This document shows, piece after piece, positions 3,001 to 15,252 of a stretch of 33,587 nt of DNA. The notes under the pieces are model-generated. The model saw only the letters and a program-made list of their open reading frames with translations. It was not told where the DNA came from and searched no databases. Source of the stretch: Acidimicrobiia bacterium (lineage in GTDB: Bacteria; Actinomycetota; Acidimicrobiia; Spongiisociales; SHLN01); the NCBI GenBank assembly GCA_013002865.1, contig JABDLU010000048.1, forward strand, positions 1-33,587, given 5' to 3'. Within the stretch, counting starts at the first letter, position 1. Every line of letters begins with the position of its first letter. Both the position numbers and the translations under genes were made by a program.

Positions 3001-3224
3001 CGGGGATTGGCTACACAAGCCTTCTGGTTCCAGTCCTTGGTACGGAGGCTGAGACAACGGCTGAGCCAGCTCAACCCAAGAGAGTGGGCAAGGGGTCTGA
3101 CAGGTTTGAGAAGGGGTCAGGCACGTCCTATTGGGATCACAGCGACGAGTTTCTCTCGCTGCTTCCCTCGTCGAGCCGTCCCAAGTCATCGACCGGTCAT
3201 CTACTAGGGTTGTCGATCGAATGA
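3..3224 (+). CDS. RHS repeat-associated core domain protein, 5'-truncated by window start; variable C-terminal domain after DPTGH
   Basis: Many YD-type repeats (YDxxGxL/NxT), RHS core 'YYGARYYDP'-like 'LMFYNARYYDPTTARFISPDTIIPDPTNPQDLNRYSYVRNSPTNLVDPTGH', followed by an unrelated ~180-aa tail. Frame is open to the window edge upstream of the first ATG/GTG. Confidence 0.93.
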   Translation, partial: LGQTGSGDDRTVQYEYTLNTTLHIVSLPKVVNLASGWRNQNNPAAKPDQLARTEILYDNNTYFWNPPTKGDPTDTRVYYDDLTGPIGTYTYHRSLTSYDTYGRVTSFTDAESNTTNFDFDTFGHVDWVRNPLLHETDYVTDPKLGVVIQITDVNDEVTKADYDGFGRLLGVERPTDPSGTDGVQYTYTYPDRGSQGAADDTMVLTTRTLLEPGVFVTSATHYDGLGRVVQTDAPRPQNATQAVVGLVDFDPDGRPFRSGVPFTMSNAPGAAYIAGDVWTSWGVVHDETTYAGNTTTVTRKQGATTVWSSQSVSDGWETTSTDAEGHTTTYVNDAFGQLVQVDEDKDTETYTTTYAYDLSGNLTTVTDDANNVTSMTYDRLGQKRTMDDPDSGDWTYVYDGVGNITSQQDGEGDWLYFEYDDLNRVLKRRSDSASGPVLAEYAYDAPFVGALDWSKANVTGGEVRIDHLSYDDAGRVLARTLTMPGSQVFREEFTYNNAGNMVTRAYPDGATGNTDEVVTYDYDAVSGLPETLTGDASFSDDDYVTSTTFNPFGQITAQQAGTGDGLYWDPAYDVHTRVERSLVRQGTSGGAISQDYNYDRDDNGLITRIWDDTVVNDQFQCFTYDDLGRLTTGFTGDWLCRWYRSNGPDPYYFSYQYDSIGNLTKKGGVTLTYSGVEAGPHAVTKYGTDDFAYDDNGNMTSRDIAGGTQTLAWDDDHQLDSVADTSGTTSFLYDADGNRVKRTTGSESTVHVGGVYEYTTAGANTTETSYYTVAGRTVAVRNGSDLHYLAQDHLGSTSLTRDGSSGSVAVHRYKPFGDPRGTSAPTETDHTYTGQIADGSTDLMFYNARYYDPTTARFISPDTIIPDPTNPQDLNRYSYVRNSPTNLVDPTGHCPEFMKNSDGGCWGAGVARAAVTFVDRTADGVAFVAGTATAFGCGPCAPVAAAAVTTGRVTDALIFGDECFVQRDGGCGEAVFYMAVNAGIQGLNDAGRITDGAAAAGIGYTSLLVPVLGTEAETTAEPAQPKRVGKGSDRFEKGSGTSYWDHSDEFLSLLPSSSRPKSSTGHLLGLSIE

Positions 3225-3271
3225 GCGAGTATCCCAGCCACTGGCCTCACTGGACGAGGTGGTGGCTATGA
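3221..3271 (+). CDS. possible 16-aa Trp-rich micro-ORF MSEYPSHWPHWTRWWL, coupled by ATGA overlaps on both sides
   Basis: ATG at 3221 overlaps the RHS stop (ATGA 3221-3224); its TGA (3269-3271) overlaps the ATG of the next ORF (ATGA 3268-3271). Very short, so tentative. Confidence 0.3.
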   Translation: MSEYPSHWPHWTRWWL

Positions 3272-3456
3272 ACTGGCTCGCCCTTGGGCTCGGCCTTGCG
3301 TTCTTGTTGGTCGGGCTCGCCTTCCGAAGACCGATGAAGAGGGGCGTGACTCACAGCGCGATGCCTAACCCACGCTTCAGCGTCATCCTCTACGGGGGTA
3401 TTGGTTTGGTGCTAATCGTGTGGGCGATCATTAGTTGGCTGGTTGACTTGGCCTAG
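3268..3456 (+). CDS. small predicted two-TM membrane protein; candidate immunity partner of the RHS toxin
   Basis: MNWLALGLGLAFLLVGLAFRRP...RFSVILYGGIGLVLIVWAIISWLVDLA: two hydrophobic helices; immediately downstream of RHS. Confidence 0.5.
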   Translation: MNWLALGLGLAFLLVGLAFRRPMKRGVTHSAMPNPRFSVILYGGIGLVLIVWAIISWLVDLA

Positions 3457-3743
3457 CTCGTGCGGCGAGGAACAGCGACCAGAGCGGAGTGCACCGGTGG
3501 GACCTGTCAGGACTCACCGTCATTCTGGACCGGGCTGCGGTTGCGTGAGATCACCACCGGGGTGTGGCACCAGAGTTCGTGGCAGGGCGCCTGCAAATGG
3601 GGGCTGCAGAATTGTGAGAGATGGTCCCGCGGGGGCTCCATTGATGGACGTTGCAGCAAATACCGATGGTCGTGGCCGAACTCCTCTAGTTCGCCGATCG
3701 TAGGCCGAGGGTCGCGACTCGTCGTCGGACCGCTGGCGGAGCA

Positions 3744-3815
3744 CGCCGATCACCAGATCGGGCGCACAAATGAGCATTTCCACGAGTACTCGGTATCGGC
3801 ACTTCGGAGTGCGGG
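3744..3815 (+). repeat. dispersed structured element, copy A
   Basis: CCGATC-ACCA-GATCGG perfect hairpin (3746-3761) and GCACT-TCGG-AGTGC hairpin (3799-3812); shares 'cggcacttcggagtgcggg' with copy B. Confidence 0.6.
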
Positions 3816-3847
3816 CTCTCCGAGCGTTGGTGGGCAGTTGTCCTTCG

Positions 3848-4273
3848 CTACGGGGCGAGCGAGCAATGGCTCTCGGACCACTTGAGGAGCTCCCCGAGCC
3901 CATCCACGAGGCGACTGCCTACGGCAGCGATTTCTCCCTCCCGTTGTTGGCCCGTGCGTCGAACGGACTCCATGTGCTTGGACAGGTCCTCCCAGCCTGC
4001 AAGGGTTTCCTCCGCTGAGCGACGTATTTCGCGGGGAGCGATATCCGCCATCTCCTCAAACGCCTCCGAGTACAGGATGTCGAGTCCCGCACCTCTACCA
4101 TCGGGTGTCAAGGGACTCCCGGACGGAAGATCAGCCAGGATCTCACACAGCCGGTCCTCATCGACGCTGTCGCCGCTGCTACAAGCTCCCGTGGCCACCG
4201 CGAGAGCAAGGGCAAGCATCAATACGTACGGCGGTCTGCCTTTGGTCACAATTCCAGAATTCGCGAGTTCCAA
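3848..4273 (-). CDS. small predicted lipoprotein
   Basis: N-terminal hydrophobic segment with lipobox-like 'ALAVATGACSSG'; remainder unknown. Confidence 0.6.
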   Translation of the reverse strand: MELANSGIVTKGRPPYVLMLALALAVATGACSSGDSVDEDRLCEILADLPSGSPLTPDGRGAGLDILYSEAFEEMADIAPREIRRSAEETLAGWEDLSKHMESVRRTGQQREGEIAAVGSRLVDGLGELLKWSESHCSLAP

Positions 4274-4403
4274 GGGTCAACATACAGCACCCCATTCGTT
4301 CCATGGCCATGGGGAAGCAGCCGTTTGCCTGGACCGGCCCATGGCAGTCCGATTGGCGAGCTGTTCACGGCCATCGGGGCGGAGGTGGTGGCCAGCCTCA
4401 AAA

Positions 4404-4480
4404 CGCCCAGAACGCCCCAATCTCGCGCGATAACGCTCCGATCGAAAAGTGCTCGGGACCGGCACGTCGGAGTGCGGGGG
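4404..4480 (+). repeat. dispersed structured element, copy B
   Basis: 'agaacgccccaatctcgcgcgataacgctcc...ccggcacgtcggagtgcgg'; shares 'tctcgcgcgataacg' with copy C and the 3' module with copy A. Confidence 0.6.
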
Positions 4481-4516
4481 TTCCATCTCAAGTATTTCGT
4501 ATTACACTATTGTGAT

Positions 4517-4780
4517 GTGGATATCCACCACACCGCCCGCAGGCACGGTATCGACGACGAGACCATCCTTCACGCCATCAATCATGCCCTCACCGTCATC
4601 GACCTCGAACCCGACGCTGACCCGCCCAAGGTGCTCGCCATCGGACCCGACCACGCCGGCAACTTGCTTGAGATCGTTTGGCTCGAACTCGCCGAAGGCG
4701 CTGAACTCGTCATCCATGCGATGCCACTGCGCCAAGTGTTCTACGACCTACTTGGACCACCCAGGGAGGACACCCTATGA
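4517..4780 (+). CDS. BrnT-like type II toxin (GTG start proposed)
   Basis: MDIHHTARRHGIDDETILHAINHALTVIDLEPDADPPKVLAIGPDHAGNLLEIVWLELAEGAELVIHAMPLRQVFYDLL resembles the BrnT fold pattern; 4-bp ATGA overlap with an RHH partner. Confidence 0.65.
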   Translation: MDIHHTARRHGIDDETILHAINHALTVIDLEPDADPPKVLAIGPDHAGNLLEIVWLELAEGAELVIHAMPLRQVFYDLLGPPREDTL

Positions 4781-5058
4781 CTGAACCAACTACCCGTCGT
4801 ACCCCGAGCGGTCGCCCCCTCACCGACGAGGATCTTGATCGCATCGCCACTGAGGTGGAGGAGAAGGACTATGACGTTGAGGCGCTCAAGTCACGCCGTC
4901 GTGGTCGACCCCCGATGGGGTCAGGACCTGCTGATGTTGTGCCGGTGAGGATCGACCCGGAACTGCGGGCCGCCATCGAAGCACGAGCCGTGGCAAACCA
5001 CACCACCACAAGCGAGATCATCCGCGAAGCTCTCCGCCGATTCCTCGACGTTGCCTGA
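4777..5058 (+). CDS. ribbon-helix-helix (CopG-type) antitoxin
   Basis: 'VVPVRIDPELRAAIEARAVANHTTTSEIIREALRRFLDVA' RHH motif; overlaps the upstream toxin gene. Confidence 0.8.
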   Translation: MTEPTTRRTPSGRPLTDEDLDRIATEVEEKDYDVEALKSRRRGRPPMGSGPADVVPVRIDPELRAAIEARAVANHTTTSEIIREALRRFLDVA

Positions 5059-5069
5059 CGACGAGGACT

Positions 5070-5150
5070 GCCCGAGAACACCCAGTTCTCGCGCGATAAC
5101 GAGCACATCACTCAACCGAGCAGAGCGGCACTTCGGCGAGCGAGTGGAGT
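5070..5150 (+). repeat. dispersed structured element, copy C
   Basis: Perfect 7-bp hairpin CGAGAAC-ACCCA-GTTCTCG (5073-5091), then GCGCGATAACG and 'gcggcacttcggcgagcg'; begins ~12 nt after the antitoxin stop. Confidence 0.6.
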
Positions 5151-5255
5151 CCTGATGGTTGGACACGAGATGCCGAGAAGACTCCCAGTCGGCTCTACAG
5201 CGCACGCTGACAGCGACGTCATCGAGTTGGGGCTTCACCGACCGAGATAGCGTGC

Positions 5256-5606
5256 TCATCTCCCAAGTTCGTAACTCACGACCGCATCGAAAGTCTCGCC
5301 GTTTCGGCCGTCGACCACCGTACGTTCACCGAGGGGCTTTGCCAACGTCACGAGGAACCCGTCGGCGCAGTCGTCTCCGCTGTCGTTCTCTACCGAGGGC
5401 GTGACGATGACCTCGGTGGCGGTCTCTTCGACGGTGACGACTATGTCGGCGTTGCACGATCCGATCCCGATATTGAGGAGCAATCCGTCGGGTGAGACGT
5501 AGATCTCGTCGTCAATGAAGGCAGGGTCCGAGTAGCAGCCGCCCAGCGCCAACACCACTAGGCCCGCTACGACGATCCGGATGGTCGACCCCCTAACCGC
5601 CCTCAT
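5256..5606 (-). CDS. small predicted lipoprotein
   Basis: MRAVRGSTIRIVVAGLVVLALGGCYSDPAF...: signal peptide with lipobox LALGGC; ATGA overlap with the upstream gene. Confidence 0.65.
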   Translation of the reverse strand: MRAVRGSTIRIVVAGLVVLALGGCYSDPAFIDDEIYVSPDGLLLNIGIGSCNADIVVTVEETATEVIVTPSVENDSGDDCADGFLVTLAKPLGERTVVDGRNGETFDAVVSYELGR

Positions 5607-5929
5607 GCAACCCACGCGTTCGGATCGAGTGTGATCACGAGACCGGCGGCCATCAGCACAACACTCGAAAACACATAGGCGGCGAATCGTCGAGCCAACC
5701 CATCTGGGGCACGGAACAGGCGCGCTCCCGCGATTGCTGCGGTAATCGTGGCACCAGCAGCGACGATCGAGAGAACGGCAACCCGCGTCGGGTGCTGCCA
5801 CTCGGGGCCACCGCTCACCGCCCTAGGTTCCGGTGCGCCGAGCACCCAGAGATAGGCCCAGATCACGAGACCCAGCACTGCGGCGTTCAGCACTCCAATC
5901 GACAAGATCATCGGCCGCACCCACCTCAC
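5603..5929 (-). CDS. small membrane protein (multiple TM)
   Basis: Three hydrophobic segments; stop overlaps the start of the downstream lipoprotein ORF. Confidence 0.6.
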   Translation of the reverse strand: MRWVRPMILSIGVLNAAVLGLVIWAYLWVLGAPEPRAVSGGPEWQHPTRVAVLSIVAAGATITAAIAGARLFRAPDGLARRFAAYVFSSVVLMAAGLVITLDPNAWVA

Positions 5930-6012
5930 ATATCACCCCCACCTGGGTTCCTCGCTGCATCATATGGCCAACCGCACATGAGCAGGGGCCAGGCCAACGC
6001 GCGGGACGCCTC

Positions 6013-6064
6013 CACGCCGATCAAGCGATCTAGAGCGATAACGCCCACCTCTCGGAGTGTCCGG
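6013..6064 (+). repeat. dispersed structured element, copy D (shorter)
   Basis: 'cacgccgatcaagcgatctagagcgataacgcccacctctcggagtgtccgg'; GATC-AAGC-GATC and 'gagcgataacg'. Confidence 0.5.
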
Positions 6065-6167
6065 TCTCCTCACATCTGCGTGCGTTACGCCGAATGGTGC
6101 GGCTGTCGCTCCTATTCTGAGGCGTGCGCACGAGTGCGTCGGACGCACGCAAGCCTTGTAGGGGATC

Positions 6168-6515
6168 TTGGTCGACCAGGAAACGAGCGAGGTGATCGGC
6201 CGCTGTCTCTCGGCAGCGTTGACCGATGCGATCTTCCCAGAGTGGGAATTCGCCGCTCTGATGGGAGCTTCTCGCGACGACCTCAGGACCGTCGTTGAGG
6301 CTTGGCCCGAAGCGGTGGATCAACCGACAGACGATCAGCGGTCTCTAGTGAACAACGTGCTCAACAATCTCCTCGGCTACCCACACGGGCTCGATGGTCA
6401 GGGCTTCGTGGATCGGGTCAGCGCCACTGAGGAACAGGTCGCCAAGGCACTCGCAGCCTGGCGCGACGACACCGGCCTCGCCCGACCTTCTGACTACTTC
6501 GACAACCTGACGTGA
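6168..6515 (+). CDS. hypothetical protein (115 aa)
   Basis: Open frame with plausible acidic composition: MVDQETSEVIGRCLSAALTDAIFPEWEFAALMGASRDDLRTVVEAWPE...; no family recognised. Confidence 0.55.
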   Translation: MVDQETSEVIGRCLSAALTDAIFPEWEFAALMGASRDDLRTVVEAWPEAVDQPTDDQRSLVNNVLNNLLGYPHGLDGQGFVDRVSATEEQVAKALAAWRDDTGLARPSDYFDNLT

Positions 6516-6517
6516 GC

Positions 6518-6590
6518 CACGCCAGATCACCAATTCTGGGACGAGAACGCTCCCATTCCCGAATAGCGCCGATCGGCACCGATGCGCTCG
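6518..6590 (+). repeat. dispersed structured element, copy E
   Basis: CCAGA-tcaccaat-TCTGG hairpin, then 'acgagaacgctcc' and 'gcgccgatcggcaccgatgcgctcg'; begins ~3 nt after the stop of the preceding gene. Confidence 0.5.
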
Positions 6591-6657
6591 TTTAGACCTT
6601 CCCAATATTGCGTGTCGTAGGCCTGATAGGACATGTCGGCACTCGTAGGATGAGGTG

Positions 6658-7569
6658 ATGTCTGTTGGTTTTGGCGCGACGATCGTTCAACTCGTGCCCT
6701 ATGCGGCGCTCCGTGACGATTTTCTCTTTGCTGAGGCGATTGGCCTGGACAACGGCTGGGTGATCGATCAGTTCTGGATCGATGGTGCGCCCGAGGTCCC
6801 GTTGCTCGAGGCGTGGGCGACTTTGGCCGCTTTGGCTGCGGACACCGAGCGGATTCGAATTGGGTCGATGGTCACAAATGTGGCCAACCGCAATCCCGGG
6901 ATCCTTGCCAAGTCAATCCTGACTGTCGACCAGGTGTCGGACGGAAGGGTTGACGTTGCAGTAGGTGGCGGCCACTACCCGGTCGAGCATGAGGCGCTGG
7001 GACTCGACTTCCTCGACCCGCAAGGTCGAGGTGACAGGCTGCGCGAGGCCGTGACCATCCTTGATGAAGCACTGCGTGGCAGTACGGTCTCTCACGAAGG
7101 TCAACACTTCACCCTGAGAGAGGCGACCTTCCGCCCCGGTCCGACTCAGTCTCCTCGCCCACCGATTTGGGTGGCCGCCCAAGCATCAAGATCTCTCCGT
7201 GTCGCAGCGCAACATGCCGACGGGGTTGTATCCCTGGGCGAGTACGAGAAAGGGATCGAGGACTCCCTTCGAGCGTTCCGAGCGAGGATGGAGAAGCTCG
7301 ACGAGATCTGCGTCGAGGAAGGTCGCGACCCTTCCACGTTGCGGCGCTGCTACTTCGCCGGCTGGGCCAACGAACCGATCTTCGCTTCGGTCGACGCCAC
7401 CGCGGATCTGATAGGGAGCTACGTAGATGCAGGTGCGACCGACTTCACCTTCTACCTCCACAACCCTGAAGAACCCCTTCTCGACGACCTACTCGCCTCA
7501 GATCGAATGGCAACACGAGACCAGCTCGCCGAAACCGCCCAAGAAGTCTTCCCCCACTTCAGGGGCTAG
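6658..7569 (+). CDS. LLM-class (F420-dependent-type) flavin oxidoreductase
   Basis: Luciferase-like pattern 'LLEAWATLAALAADTERIRIGSMVTNVANRNPGILAKSILTVDQVSDGRVDVAVGGGHYPVEHEALGLDF...RLREAVTILDEAL'. Confidence 0.9.
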   Translation: MSVGFGATIVQLVPYAALRDDFLFAEAIGLDNGWVIDQFWIDGAPEVPLLEAWATLAALAADTERIRIGSMVTNVANRNPGILAKSILTVDQVSDGRVDVAVGGGHYPVEHEALGLDFLDPQGRGDRLREAVTILDEALRGSTVSHEGQHFTLREATFRPGPTQSPRPPIWVAAQASRSLRVAAQHADGVVSLGEYEKGIEDSLRAFRARMEKLDEICVEEGRDPSTLRRCYFAGWANEPIFASVDATADLIGSYVDAGATDFTFYLHNPEEPLLDDLLASDRMATRDQLAETAQEVFPHFRG

Positions 7570-7610
7570 ACCTGCTTGAGGCTGTTCGTCAAAGAGCCTG
7601 TGCCAACCCG

Positions 7611-7680
7611 GTATCAACTGATCCCGAGCGATAACACGCGCGACGAGAAACCACGCGTACTGGCACGTCCAGGATCGGGT
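7611..7680 (+). repeat. dispersed structured element, copy F (divergent)
   Basis: 'tatcaactgatcccgagcgataacacgc...tactggcacgtccagga' with CTGG-CACGT-CCAG hairpin. Confidence 0.45.
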
Positions 7681-7683
7681 CGG

Positions 7684-8022
7684 TCAGTGGTTGAGCAGGG
7701 TCTTGATGACGGCGCTGACCTGGTTGCTGACGTTTGATCCCACGGAGCCCAGGGGATGGACGAGCCGGTTGCGGTTGATCGACCGGATCAGCTCGCATTG
7801 GATGTAGCTGGTGGTGTCGAGACCGGTGTCCGCGCTGGGCTCGACTTCGATATGCAGGGAAAGGCCGCGCCGGGCCGTGGTGAGTGGGACGACGATCACG
7901 AACGGAAACCCTGGGCCGAACGTGTCGGGGGGACCAAGAATCAGTGCTGGGCGGTGCGCGGCCGGCTCACCGGAAGAGGGATTGCCGAAGTCGACTAGCC
8001 AGAGGTCATCAACCGATGCCAT
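7684..8022 (-). CDS. MazF/PemK-like toxin
   Basis: MASVDDLWLVDFGNPSSGEPAAHRPALILGPPDTFGPGFPFVIVVPLTTARRGLSLHIEVEPSADTGLDTTSYIQCELIRSINRNRLVHPLGSV: PemK/MazF fold signature. Confidence 0.85.
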   Translation of the reverse strand: MASVDDLWLVDFGNPSSGEPAAHRPALILGPPDTFGPGFPFVIVVPLTTARRGLSLHIEVEPSADTGLDTTSYIQCELIRSINRNRLVHPLGSVGSNVSNQVSAVIKTLLNH

Positions 8023-8245
8023 CGGACACCGACGTGTCATCGGCTGCGGTGAGATAGGCCTCCCATGCCTGAGGGTCGTCTCGAAGTTCGGCAAGCTCGG
8101 CGGCCACCTGATGGCCGAAGCGTTGCCGTCGGAGCGCTTCGGCAGCGTCGCGTACCGTTTCGATGAGCGATGCGCCGGTTGTTTGGCTCAGGGCGAGGAG
8201 GCGGGCGTGGGTGTCGGTGTCGACGCGGATTGTTGTTGTTCCCAT
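8009..8245 (-). CDS. antitoxin (RHH-like N-terminus) of the MazF-like pair
   Basis: MGTTTIRVDTDTHARLLALSQTTGASLIETVRDAAEALRRQRF...; overlaps the toxin start by 14 bp. Confidence 0.8.
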   Translation of the reverse strand: MGTTTIRVDTDTHARLLALSQTTGASLIETVRDAAEALRRQRFGHQVAAELAELRDDPQAWEAYLTAADDTSVSDGIG

Positions 8246-8262
8246 ATCAGCAGTATACAGAA

Positions 8263-8281
8263 TGTAGACGTTTTGTCTACA
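8263..8281. promoter_or_regulatory. candidate autoregulatory operator of the MazF-like TA
   Basis: Perfect inverted repeat TGTAGAC-GTTTT-GTCTACA, 17 nt upstream of the antitoxin start; adjacent palindrome GTATAC (8253-8258). Confidence 0.65.
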
Positions 8282-8306
8282 GCCTTCGTTGCTCCCCCCT
8301 GCATGG

Positions 8307-8392
8307 ACGCCGATCACTAGATCGCGTACATGAACACCCTCCACAGCGCCGGGAGCCAGCGACCTAGGCCCGGCACAAGGCGGAGTGTCGAC
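8307..8392 (+). repeat. dispersed structured element, copy G
   Basis: CGATC-ACTA-GATCG hairpin and CGGCAC-aaggcgga-GTGTCG at the 3' end ('cggcacaaggcggagtg' vs copy A 'cggcacttcggagtg'). Confidence 0.5.
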
Positions 8393-8497
8393 CACGTCAG
8401 TGGACACCACAAATAGCTGTCCTCACATGCCCCAAACTTTTCGCGGCCTGCTCCCGGCGCGGACGTCGCACCAGTTGCCGCTAGTACCCTCCCGGCC

Positions 8498-9658
8498 ATG
8501 GCAGATATCGAAATTGGCATCGGAAAATCAGGTCGTCAGGCGTACGGGTTCGACGACATCGCAATAGTTCCATCCCGGCGGACCCGGGACCCTGAGGACG
8601 TCGACCTGAGCTGGGAGATCGACGCCTACCGGTTCGACTTGCCGCTCATGGCATCGGCGATGGACTCGGCTGTCAGCCCAGAAACCGCTCTCGAAATCGG
8701 GCGCCTCGGCGGTCTGGCCGTGCTCAACCTGGAGGGGTTGTGGACCCGGTATGAAGACCCAACGCCGCAACTGGAGGAGATCGCATCACTTCCGGCCGAG
8801 AAGGCCACCCGGCGTATGCAGGAGATCTACCAGGAACCGATGAAACCGGACCTCATCGGCACCCGGATATCAGAATTGCGCAGCGCCGGCATCACCACCG
8901 CGGCCAGTCTCACCCCGCAGCGGGTCGAGGAATTCGCACCGCTGACGGTCGAGGCGGGTCTGCACATTCTCGTCATCCAAGGGACGGTGGTATCGGCCGA
9001 GCATGTCTCGAGCCGCTCGGCGCCCCTCAACCTGAAAGAGTTCATCCGGGGGTTCGAGCTGCCGGTGATCGTCGGAGGGGTGGCGTCGTATTCGACGACG
9101 CTTCACCTGATGCGCACCGGGGCCGTCGGTGTGCTGGTCGGAGTTGGCCCGGGGGCAGCCTGCACCACCCGGGGTGTGCTGGGGATCGGTGTGCCGCAGG
9201 CCACCGCTATCGCAGACGCCGCCGGCGCCCGCATGGCCTACCTGGACGAGAGCGGCCGCTATGTGCAGGTCATCGCCGATGGCGGAATGCGCCGCGGGGG
9301 AGACATCGCCAAGGCGATCGCCTGCGGCGCCGATGCGGTCATGATCGGCTCGCCGCTTGCCTCCGCGCAGGAATCGCCCGGGCGCGGCGTCCATTGGGGC
9401 ATGGCCACCTTTCATCCAACGCTTCCCCGTGGAGCACGGGTCGAGGTCGGCAACCTTGGGACTCTCGAAGAAATCCTCGTTGGTCCGGCCTACGAGAACG
9501 ACGGCCGGCGCAACCTGTTCGGGGGCCTGCGGGTCTCGATGGCCACCACGGGTTACGAGACCATCAAGGACTTCCAAAAAGCCGAAGTGATGATCGCCCC
9601 GGCCCTCCAGACCGAGGGCAAGGCACTCCAGAAGGCCCAGCAGATCGGCATGGCCTGA
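8498..9658 (+). CDS. guaB3: GuaB3 family IMP dehydrogenase-related protein
   Basis: '[69 protein letters not shown]' and '[28 protein letters not shown]'; directly precedes guaA. Confidence 0.93.
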
Positions 9659-11208
9659 TGTCGGGCGAGTTGGAGGACTTCGACAAGGTTCTCGTTTTCG
9701 ACTTTGGAGCCCAGTACGCCCAGCTCATTGCCCGGCGCGTCCGGGAAGCGCACGTGTTCTCTCAGATCGTGCCGCGTGACACCACGGCTGCTGAAGCAGC
9801 CGGGCACGAGCCCACCGCCATCATCCTGTCGGGCGGCCCGGCATCGGTGTACGCCGAAGATGCCTACGACGTGGATTCGGCCATCTTCGAGCTCGGCGTG
9901 CCCGTCCTCGGCATCTGCTACGGCCACCAGTTGCTCGCTCACGGGATGGGCGGGGTGGTCGACCGCCGGGAATCCGGCGAGTACGGCAAGGCGGACCTGA
10001 CGGCTGAGATCGAGGGCTCGGTGTTGTTCAGCGAGCTCCCCGAGGAGCAGCCCGTATGGATGAGCCACGGCGATTCCGTGGTCAAAGCCCCGCCCGGATT
10101 CCAGACCACCGCCTGGACCGACGGATCTCCGGTCGCCGCCATGGAGGACCCCTCCCGGCACCTGTACGGGGTCCAATTCCATCCTGAAGTGGCTCACACG
10201 CCGCGCGGCCAGGAGCTGCTCAAGCGGTTCCTCTACGACGCGGCCGGAGCCCGCCCGACCTGGACGCACGTGTCGATCATCGAACGCGCCGTCGAGTCCA
10301 TCCGGGAGCAGGTCGGGGATCGCAAGGTCATATGTGGCCTGTCGGGCGGGGTTGATTCGGCAGTCGCGGCCGCACTGGTCCACAAAGCGGTCGGTGATCA
10401 GCTGACCTGTGTCTTCATCGACCATGGCTTGCTTCGGTACGGGGAGGCTGAGCAGGTCGTCGAAACCTTCGACCGGTCGTTTCACATGAACCTGATCCAC
10501 GTTGAGGCAGGCGAGCGGTTCGTCGGCGCGCTGCGGGGGGTCACCGATCCTGAGCGCAAGCGCAAGATCATCGGCGAGACCTTTATTCGTGTGTTCGAGG
10601 AGGTGGCCGCCGACCTGAAGGACGTCGATCTCCTCGTCCAGGGAACCTTGTATCCCGACATCATCGAGTCGGGCACCAAGGACGCCGCCAAGATCAAGAG
10701 CCACCACAACGTGGGTGGCCTGCCCGATGACATGCAGTTCGAGTTGGTAGAGCCGCTTCGGGATCTCTTCAAGGACGAAGTCAGAGCCGTGGGCGAAGAG
10801 CTGGGCCTGCCCGACGAGATCGTGTGGCGTCAGCCATTTCCCGGACCGGGTCTAGCGATCCGCATCATCGGGGAGGTCACCGAGGAGCGCCTCGAGATTC
10901 TGCGAGCCGCCGACCACATCATCACCGAAGAGGTGCGGCGGGCCGGGTTGTATAGGGATCTCTGGCAGTCCTTCGGCGTGCTGGCGGCGATCCGCACCGT
11001 CGGCGTGCAGGGAGACGAGCGAACCTACGCCCACCCCTTGATCCTGCGGGCGGTCACATCCGATGACGCCATGACGGCCGACTGGGCCCGACTGCCCTTC
11101 GACGTTCTGGAACGGATCTCGTCGCGAGTCATCAACGAGGTCGACGGGATCAACCGCGTGACCTACGACATCTCCTCCAAGCCCCCCGCCACGATTGAGT
11201 GGGAATAG
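9658..11208 (+). CDS. guaA: GMP synthase (glutamine-hydrolysing)
   Basis: Class I amidotransferase '[15 protein letters not shown]', '[34 protein letters not shown]', C-terminal '[20 protein letters not shown]'; TGATG overlap with guaB3. Confidence 0.98.
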
Positions 11209-14686: not shown

Positions 14687-15195
14687 CGATGGTCGTTGGT
14701 CACTAATTGAGTCGACTGTCAACCGTCAACTGTCGACTGCCAGAACCCGTTTCACGTTCTTCGTGGAATCGAGAGCGGCACGAACTGCCCCTGACCCTAC
14801 CCCCGCGCCGTGGTTGGCTTCCAGGACGGATCATTCGCTCTTGGCCGTTGACCGTCGACGGTTGACCGTTGACTGTTTCACTCATCGGGTCGACGGTCGA
14901 CCGTCAACTGTCGACTGCCAGAACCCGTTTCACGTTCTTCGTGAGGTCAGGAGCGGCACGAACCGCATCCCAGGCCCGACGTCTGCGCCGTGGTTGGCTT
15001 CCAGGACGCATTGTTCGCTCTTGGCCGTTGACCGTCGACGGTCAACTGTCGACTGACTGCCAGAACCCGTTTCACGGGGTTTGTGAGATCGGAGCGGCGC
15101 GAACTGTCCTCACACCCGATGCCTGTGCGGTGGTTGGCTTCCAGGACGCATCGTTCGCTCTTGGCCGTTGACCGTCGACGGTTGACCGTCGACTG
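14687..15195. repeat. three tandem copies of a complex repeat with heptamer arms in inverted orientation
   Basis: 'cagaacccgtttcacg' at 14741, 14919, 15061; 'ggttggcttccaggacg..t.(g)ttcgctcttggccgttgaccgtcgacgg' in all three; flanked by GTCRACN heptamers and their reverse complement. Confidence 0.92.
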
Positions 15196-15252
15196 ATTCG
15201 CCGAATCACACTCTTGGGATTCTCGTCGGGGGAGGCTCGTATACTCGCCTGC

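Follow-up and report, generated by a model that had tools for sequence, protein, structure and literature searches.

The whole of contig JABDLU010000048.1 (C171), 33,587 bases, is called the window throughout. Its bases come from a metagenome-assembled genome (MAG) of Acidimicrobiia (2.9 Mb in 224 contigs, 90% complete) and carry, between positions 3741 and about 8389, seven similar elements (A to G) with small gene units between them. From comparison with related genomes, we conclude with a probability of about 0.72 that this array consists of six cassettes belonging to a system for site-specific gene capture in Acidimicrobiia, and we propose less firmly that its enzyme belongs to a clade of 299-amino acid (aa) XerC/D-like tyrosine recombinases. 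Each cassette would combine one or two genes, on either strand, with a 3′ site of ~75 nucleotides (nt), which the first bases of the next cassette (GnGCGG-like) would complete. A tyrosine recombinase would exchange strands in the short spacer past a GGCAC motif, and single cassettes would be excised or inserted and joined head to tail.

Integrons are the textbook platform for single-gene capture. What we describe here looks like a second gene-capture system, previously undescribed, in a phylum, the Actinobacteria, that a large published survey reported to be without complete integrons (PMC9024848); we found no description of the system in the open-access papers searched. If this is true, the same layout evolved here on the basis of an unrelated site and another clade of recombinases, cassette capture has more than one origin, and toxin-antitoxin and orphan genes that form a hidden pool in Acidimicrobiia are accounted for. 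The system also supplies concrete sites and a candidate enzyme for testing.

Local arrays, mobile units and an empty chromosomal site

A first-pass annotation of the window had placed seven + strand copies of a structured element in this region, and all seven were found on that strand, no more than 6 nt from the positions given. Elements A to F are matched by R1, a covariance model built from these six elements (E values 2e-20 to 4e-14); G is degenerate. Because R1 matches its own elements by construction, the weight falls on the locality of the array and on the transfer of the model to other genomes. The next-best match in the 2.9-Mb genome reached only 3e-4, so the array is local within its genome. 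In fixed-motif shuffle tests, the second hairpin of the element (CGGCACTTCGGAGTGCGGG) occurs three times in the array region versus 0.015 expected, and the hairpin-1 motif three times versus 0.09 expected; a fixed-motif scan of the reverse strand of the array region found neither.

R1 matched 28 of 59 genomes, the home genome included, with matches clustered on one strand. A sequence model derived from 85 elements (R2) matched 63 of the 138 genomes of the order, with at least 34 matches in one or more of them. Pooled statistics cover 101 loci from the same order, with 240 elements in all; the loci were chosen for containing matches, a selection that gives neither element orientation an advantage. 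Among adjacent elements less than 3.5 kb apart, 128 of 133 pairs have the same orientation and 5 the opposite (binomial 3e-32). The median spacing is 766 nt, and usually one or two genes lie between elements, 52 along and 67 against the element direction. The early observation that genes lie on either strand while element orientation is constant thus holds across these loci as well. When 85,462 named species were scanned for the exact pattern, 29 stretches came up, of which the full model backs only those from MAGs labeled Acidimicrobiia, Acidimicrobiaceae, Actinobacteria or unnamed; the matches outside Actinobacteria were rejected, as the full model gives them no support.

Single units recur in new surroundings (G numbers designate genomes and L numbers the loci compared). 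The MazF unit of the window is found in G000, G042, G112, G122 and G085; its homologues in G042 (83%) and G112 (84%) both terminate in an element, and it adjoins elements in G112, G122 and G085. Homologues of the ribbon-helix-helix (RHH) unit are accompanied by elements in G012 and G082, and loci L090 and L091 share whole-unit homology of 85% across different contexts. The sharpest pair is a RelBE unit shared by G112 and G078 in different arrays. At its tail, the element is conserved between the two genomes through CGGCACG and homology ends right there, and at its head, homology begins in the box directly past the spacer of unrelated upstream elements. A VapBC unit present in different arrays of G112, G102 and G126 has the same head boundary. 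These limits of homology imply that the site goes with the upstream genes and the box with the downstream genes, with the exchange between them. The predicted exchange point therefore lies between the CGGCAC site and the next box, just past GGCAC, and each unit appears to bring along a 3′-terminal site of its own.

A syntenic comparison ahead of guaB3, suggested in the first-pass annotation, showed that the array is absent in five relatives (G001, G002, G005, G006 and G007), where guaB3 directly follows trpS with no element between. Homology of the window with these relatives begins at 8478-8510, about 75-110 nt past the array, around the start of the chromosomal guaB3-guaA flank (8498-11208, + strand). 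Since the trpS-guaB3 junction is empty in the relatives, the array and the RHS-like gene preceding it are an insertion relative to them. That gene, RHS/YD-repeat-like and near the contig start (36-3224), is likewise absent between trpS and guaB3 there.

Three observations thus support gene capture, as originally proposed: units are reused in different surroundings, relatives have an empty chromosomal site, and element orientation is constant. The alternative named at the outset, that the elements are terminators or repeats of the repetitive extragenic palindromic (REP) or bacterial interspersed mosaic element type lying by chance between genes, draws on the hairpins and on the frequent position of elements close behind stop codons. 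However, element orientation is independent of the genes, and the copies, far above background, run head to tail on one strand within arrays rather than genome-wide. Whole units are gained and lost together with their element, and this unit-wise movement refutes the terminator or REP-like explanation, to which we assign next to no probability.

Anatomy of the site and comparison with integrons

The consensus site (~75 nt) comprises a short hairpin, a step of ~9 nt, a core, a variable stretch of ~30 nt and CGGCAC; then come a spacer only a few nt long and the box GnGCGG. Hairpin 1, which reads CCAGATCACCCTGATC or CCGATCACC..., has 7 pairs with compensatory changes among A to F, the core is GCGATAACGC, containing ATAAC, and the variable stretch falls into a few recurrent classes. 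Covariation over 85 copies supports the short 5′ hairpin only. The common layout first described for the seven copies needs correction at the 3′ end: D has CTCAC in place of GGCAC, and E and F are without the GGAGTGCG half of hairpin 2. A second class of site, TCACCGACGAGCGGGAGGCCCCGCCCGCTCATTGCATCAC-like and with a longer hairpin, occupies the expected place of an element upstream of a MazF unit in L136 and upstream of an LLM unit in L139; R2 does not detect it as an element.

In layout, the arrays are much like integrons and clusters of attC sites lacking integron integrases (CALINs). Both have head-to-tail cassettes of one or two genes with a site at the 3′ end, exchange at the distal edge of that site, cargo rich in toxin-antitoxin genes, and many clusters without a linked integrase; a putative attI-like site by the candidate recombinase of the arrays may be a further parallel. 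The arrays could accordingly belong to a true integron with very diverged attC sites and IntI acting in trans. The tests of this possibility were negative. In 19 genomes checked, no IntI scored above the TIGR02249 cut-off (265 bits). Pairs of R″ and R′ boxes (RYYYAAC/GTTRRRY), which had not been found consistently in the window either, occur in 2 of the 240 elements versus 0.4 expected, and the R″ box itself is below chance (13 observed versus 20 expected). There are no consensus long-range pairs and no long-range covariation of the kind that an attC-like long stem would leave, and the fold energies of the two strands do not stand out (mean z −0.37 and −0.50). Near-chance R boxes, ordinary folding and covariation restricted to the short hairpin show that the site is not attC, and an attC-like long stem was ruled out on these grounds. 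Moreover, the cassette genes here lie in both orientations, and the recombinase gene described below is embedded in arrays and points along them, which sets these arrays apart from integrons. The integron explanation is thus already largely refuted, and we consider it highly improbable. Of the two options initially left standing, a divergent integron or a different recombination platform, only the latter is supported: the system is integron-like in its working, yet failed the tests for two defining integron features, IntI and attC.

A candidate recombinase and its attI-like site

A tyrosine recombinase near other arrays, of the kind that the first-pass annotation advised seeking, was found by running a tyrosine-recombinase profile on open reading frames close to elements, which identified a 299-aa protein in G079. 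Near-identical fragments occur in G126 (96%) and G001 (85%), the three genomes belonging to three different families. In an order-wide search, elements were present on 12 of the 23 contigs bearing this clade, and the array-borne copies are co-oriented with the elements in 12 of 12 cases. When equal flanks of 1.5 kb were compared, 5 of 11 clade members had an element in them, as against none of 17 other tyrosine recombinases (one-sided Fisher ~0.005). The left junction of the recombinase unit in L264 and L081 coincides precisely with the spacer of unrelated elements upstream, which suggests that the gene itself travels in the manner of a cassette. The protein is XerC/D-like, with 138 bits for TIGR02225 (cut-off 330) and an alignment to the XerD profile over residues 25-276, and it is far under the IntI cut-off (74 bits for TIGR02249). 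The clade is supported 99/99 and is separate from host Xer; its nearest relatives are recombinases of actinobacterial plasmids (40-46% identity), near which no elements were found.

Six loci contain a conserved attI-like site, ATCTGCCGGTT(~17)GCGCTCGATAACGTGC(~20)TGGGCGG, also written ATCTGCCGGTT...GCTCGATAACGTGC...TGGGCGG. It lies 60-200 nt downstream of the candidate recombinase in five of the six; the sixth copy is at a contig start (L229). Co-oriented elements come after it in L222, L229, L261 and L273. This candidate site has a GATAAC core in common with the elements and ends in the cassette-head box, and in both core and terminal box it looks as an attI counterpart would. The 299-aa clade is the likely integrase of the arrays and would insert cassettes at the attI-like site that closely follows its own gene. 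It is reasonably probable, to a lesser degree than the cassette nature of the window array, that this is an independent cassette system, in which an XerC/D-derived clade with its own attI-like and cassette-end sites captures and shuffles single genes, whichever way they point, and in which the recombinase gene is itself a cassette able to seed new arrays.

Rolling-circle transposition of the HUH type (IS91- or Helitron-like), with units added head to tail and the element serving as 3′ terminator hairpin, would also produce constant orientation, a hairpin in the 3′ site and units with little conserved 5′ ends. No HUH family recurs among the clustered neighbors of the arrays, although no HUH profile was searched, and the unit-head box and attI-like site fit a two-site recombinase better. 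We regard this mechanism as quite unlikely.

A further explanation is that host XerC/XerD recombine the elements, as in the pdif (dif) modules of Acinetobacter, and that the array-borne recombinase is a passenger. Those modules, too, consist of toxin-antitoxin and accessory genes shuffled by tyrosine recombination (PMC13141974, PMC6449649), and Xer genes are present in nearly every genome of the order, even those without the candidate clade. However, pdif modules have short XerC/XerD core sites in C and D forms (PMC13141974), whereas the sites here are ~75 nt long and point in one direction in 128 of 133 pairs, and array-less genomes carry Xer as well. A role for host Xer in place of the 299-aa clade is in our judgment unlikely, although less so than rolling-circle transposition.

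Several points weigh against a capture system driven by the 299-aa clade. The evidence is entirely comparative, no recombination having been observed, and all array-bearing genomes that we looked at closely are fragmented MAGs. The attI-like site is known from six copies only, and on about half of the contigs with the clade R2 detected no element. The clade was not found in the MAG of the window or in several MAGs with many elements, among them G003 and G112, for which the search gave Xer-level matches only; these MAGs are incomplete, but not so incomplete that this would readily explain its absence. The role of the enzyme in those arrays would consequently be in trans, in the past, or wrongly assigned, and explanations include an enzyme encoded elsewhere, its loss, or a different enzyme, for instance XerCD. 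If the 299-aa clade is indeed the enzyme, the window array would correspond to a cassette cluster without an integrase, either mobilized by an enzyme acting in trans or a remnant.

Other recombinases were considered and rejected. A catalytic-only recombinase of 205-215 aa is missing from families rich in elements but abundant in genomes that have none; its family occurs in 18 of the 138 genomes, with no link to arrays. In G092 (C246, 9050-17048), five such proteins, of about 200-215 aa and lacking the N-terminal arm domain, are encoded on a single strand in a stretch of 8 kb. A two-tyrosine-recombinase element in the arrays of G003 resembles a transposon; its two copies (L075, 17913-20000, and L097, 146-3015) have diverged and are 78% identical, with the first recombinase frameshifted in one. 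An AlphaFold model of the candidate recombinase (predicted local distance difference test score, pLDDT, 53) was too poor and was not used. Diverged clade members (~61-73% identity) were seen in G100 (C200, 7838-8623 and 15849-16690), one of them in an 823-codon open frame, with no element detected on the contig.

tRNA-anchored integrative islands, or tycheposons, carry accessory cargo and move as whole islands by means of an integrase at a tRNA. Some arrays are situated in such islands (L084, L116), but in the present system genes move singly, and the majority of arrays have no tRNA beside them. The integrases beside arrays in L084, L116, L117, L119, L120 and L088 were set aside as island integrases, each abutting a tRNA. 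The tRNA-Val-anchored island in L084 (3182-10683; G012, C69) contains several cassettes, an integrase, an excisionase-like gene and an IS3-type transposase, and a 102-nt perfect duplication (3207-3308 and 10582-10683). L116 and L117 contain similar islands with a TrwC-like relaxase.

Cassettes of the window and cargo of the arrays

Cassette boundaries in the window were placed by the exchange point mapped in the RelBE and VapBC comparisons, and all elements and cassettes are given on the + strand. The recombination-site-like element A (3741-3818; GGCAC 3798-3802; R1 E = 1.5e-16) precedes cassette 1 (3803-4465), which has a lipoprotein-like gene on the − strand (3848-4219/4273) and ends in element B (4403-4481; GGCAC 4461-4465; 8.8e-19). 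Cassette 2 (4466-5131) combines a small open reading frame (4472-4780), without a Pfam match and previously labeled BrnT, with an RHH antitoxin-like gene (4777-5058; RHH_1), and homologous units adjoin elements in L113 and L148; it ends in element C (5069-5147; GGCAC 5127-5131; 1.9e-20). Two − strand genes, lipoprotein-like (5256-5558/5606) and encoding a membrane protein (5603-5929), make up cassette 3 (5132-6073), which has a partial homologue in G003 (L105) with an element nearby and ends in element D (6012-6089; CTCAC 6069-6073; 4.2e-15). A hypothetical + strand gene without a Pfam match (6168-6515) occupies cassette 4 (6074-6579), up to element E (6518-6595; GGCAC 6575-6579; 4.1e-14). Cassette 5 (6580-7666) encodes an LLM-class oxidoreductase (6655-7569, + strand; PF00296), with a homologous gene near elements in L138, and ends in element F (7605-7682; GGCAC 7662-7666; 2.7e-15). 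In cassette 6 (7667-8376), a MazF/PemK toxin gene (7684-8022; PF02452) and its partner (8009-8248) lie on the − strand. The RHH, MazF/PemK and LLM assignments made at first pass were thus confirmed, and the BrnT label was not.

Element G (about 8302-8389; GGCAC 8372-8376), at the 3′ end of the array, was missed by both R1 and R2 and has ~10 extra nt ahead of GGCAC. We count it as an element on two grounds: its first 18 nt (hairpin 1) match A at 94% identity, and in another family (G042) the homologous MazF unit terminates in a clear element where G sits (L112).

Toxin-antitoxin genes are the leading families among 111 cassette proteins scanned, with Phd/YefM (11), PemK/MazF (6), ParE (6), RHH (6) and PIN (5). 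Three of the scanned proteins are serpins, and serpin-family cargo genes occur in three arrays (L075, 4491-5597; L079, 9056-10426; L080, 98-1267). Elsewhere in the window, self-comparison revealed overlapping direct repeats of ~160-360 nt, 77-84% identical, at 14700-15199.

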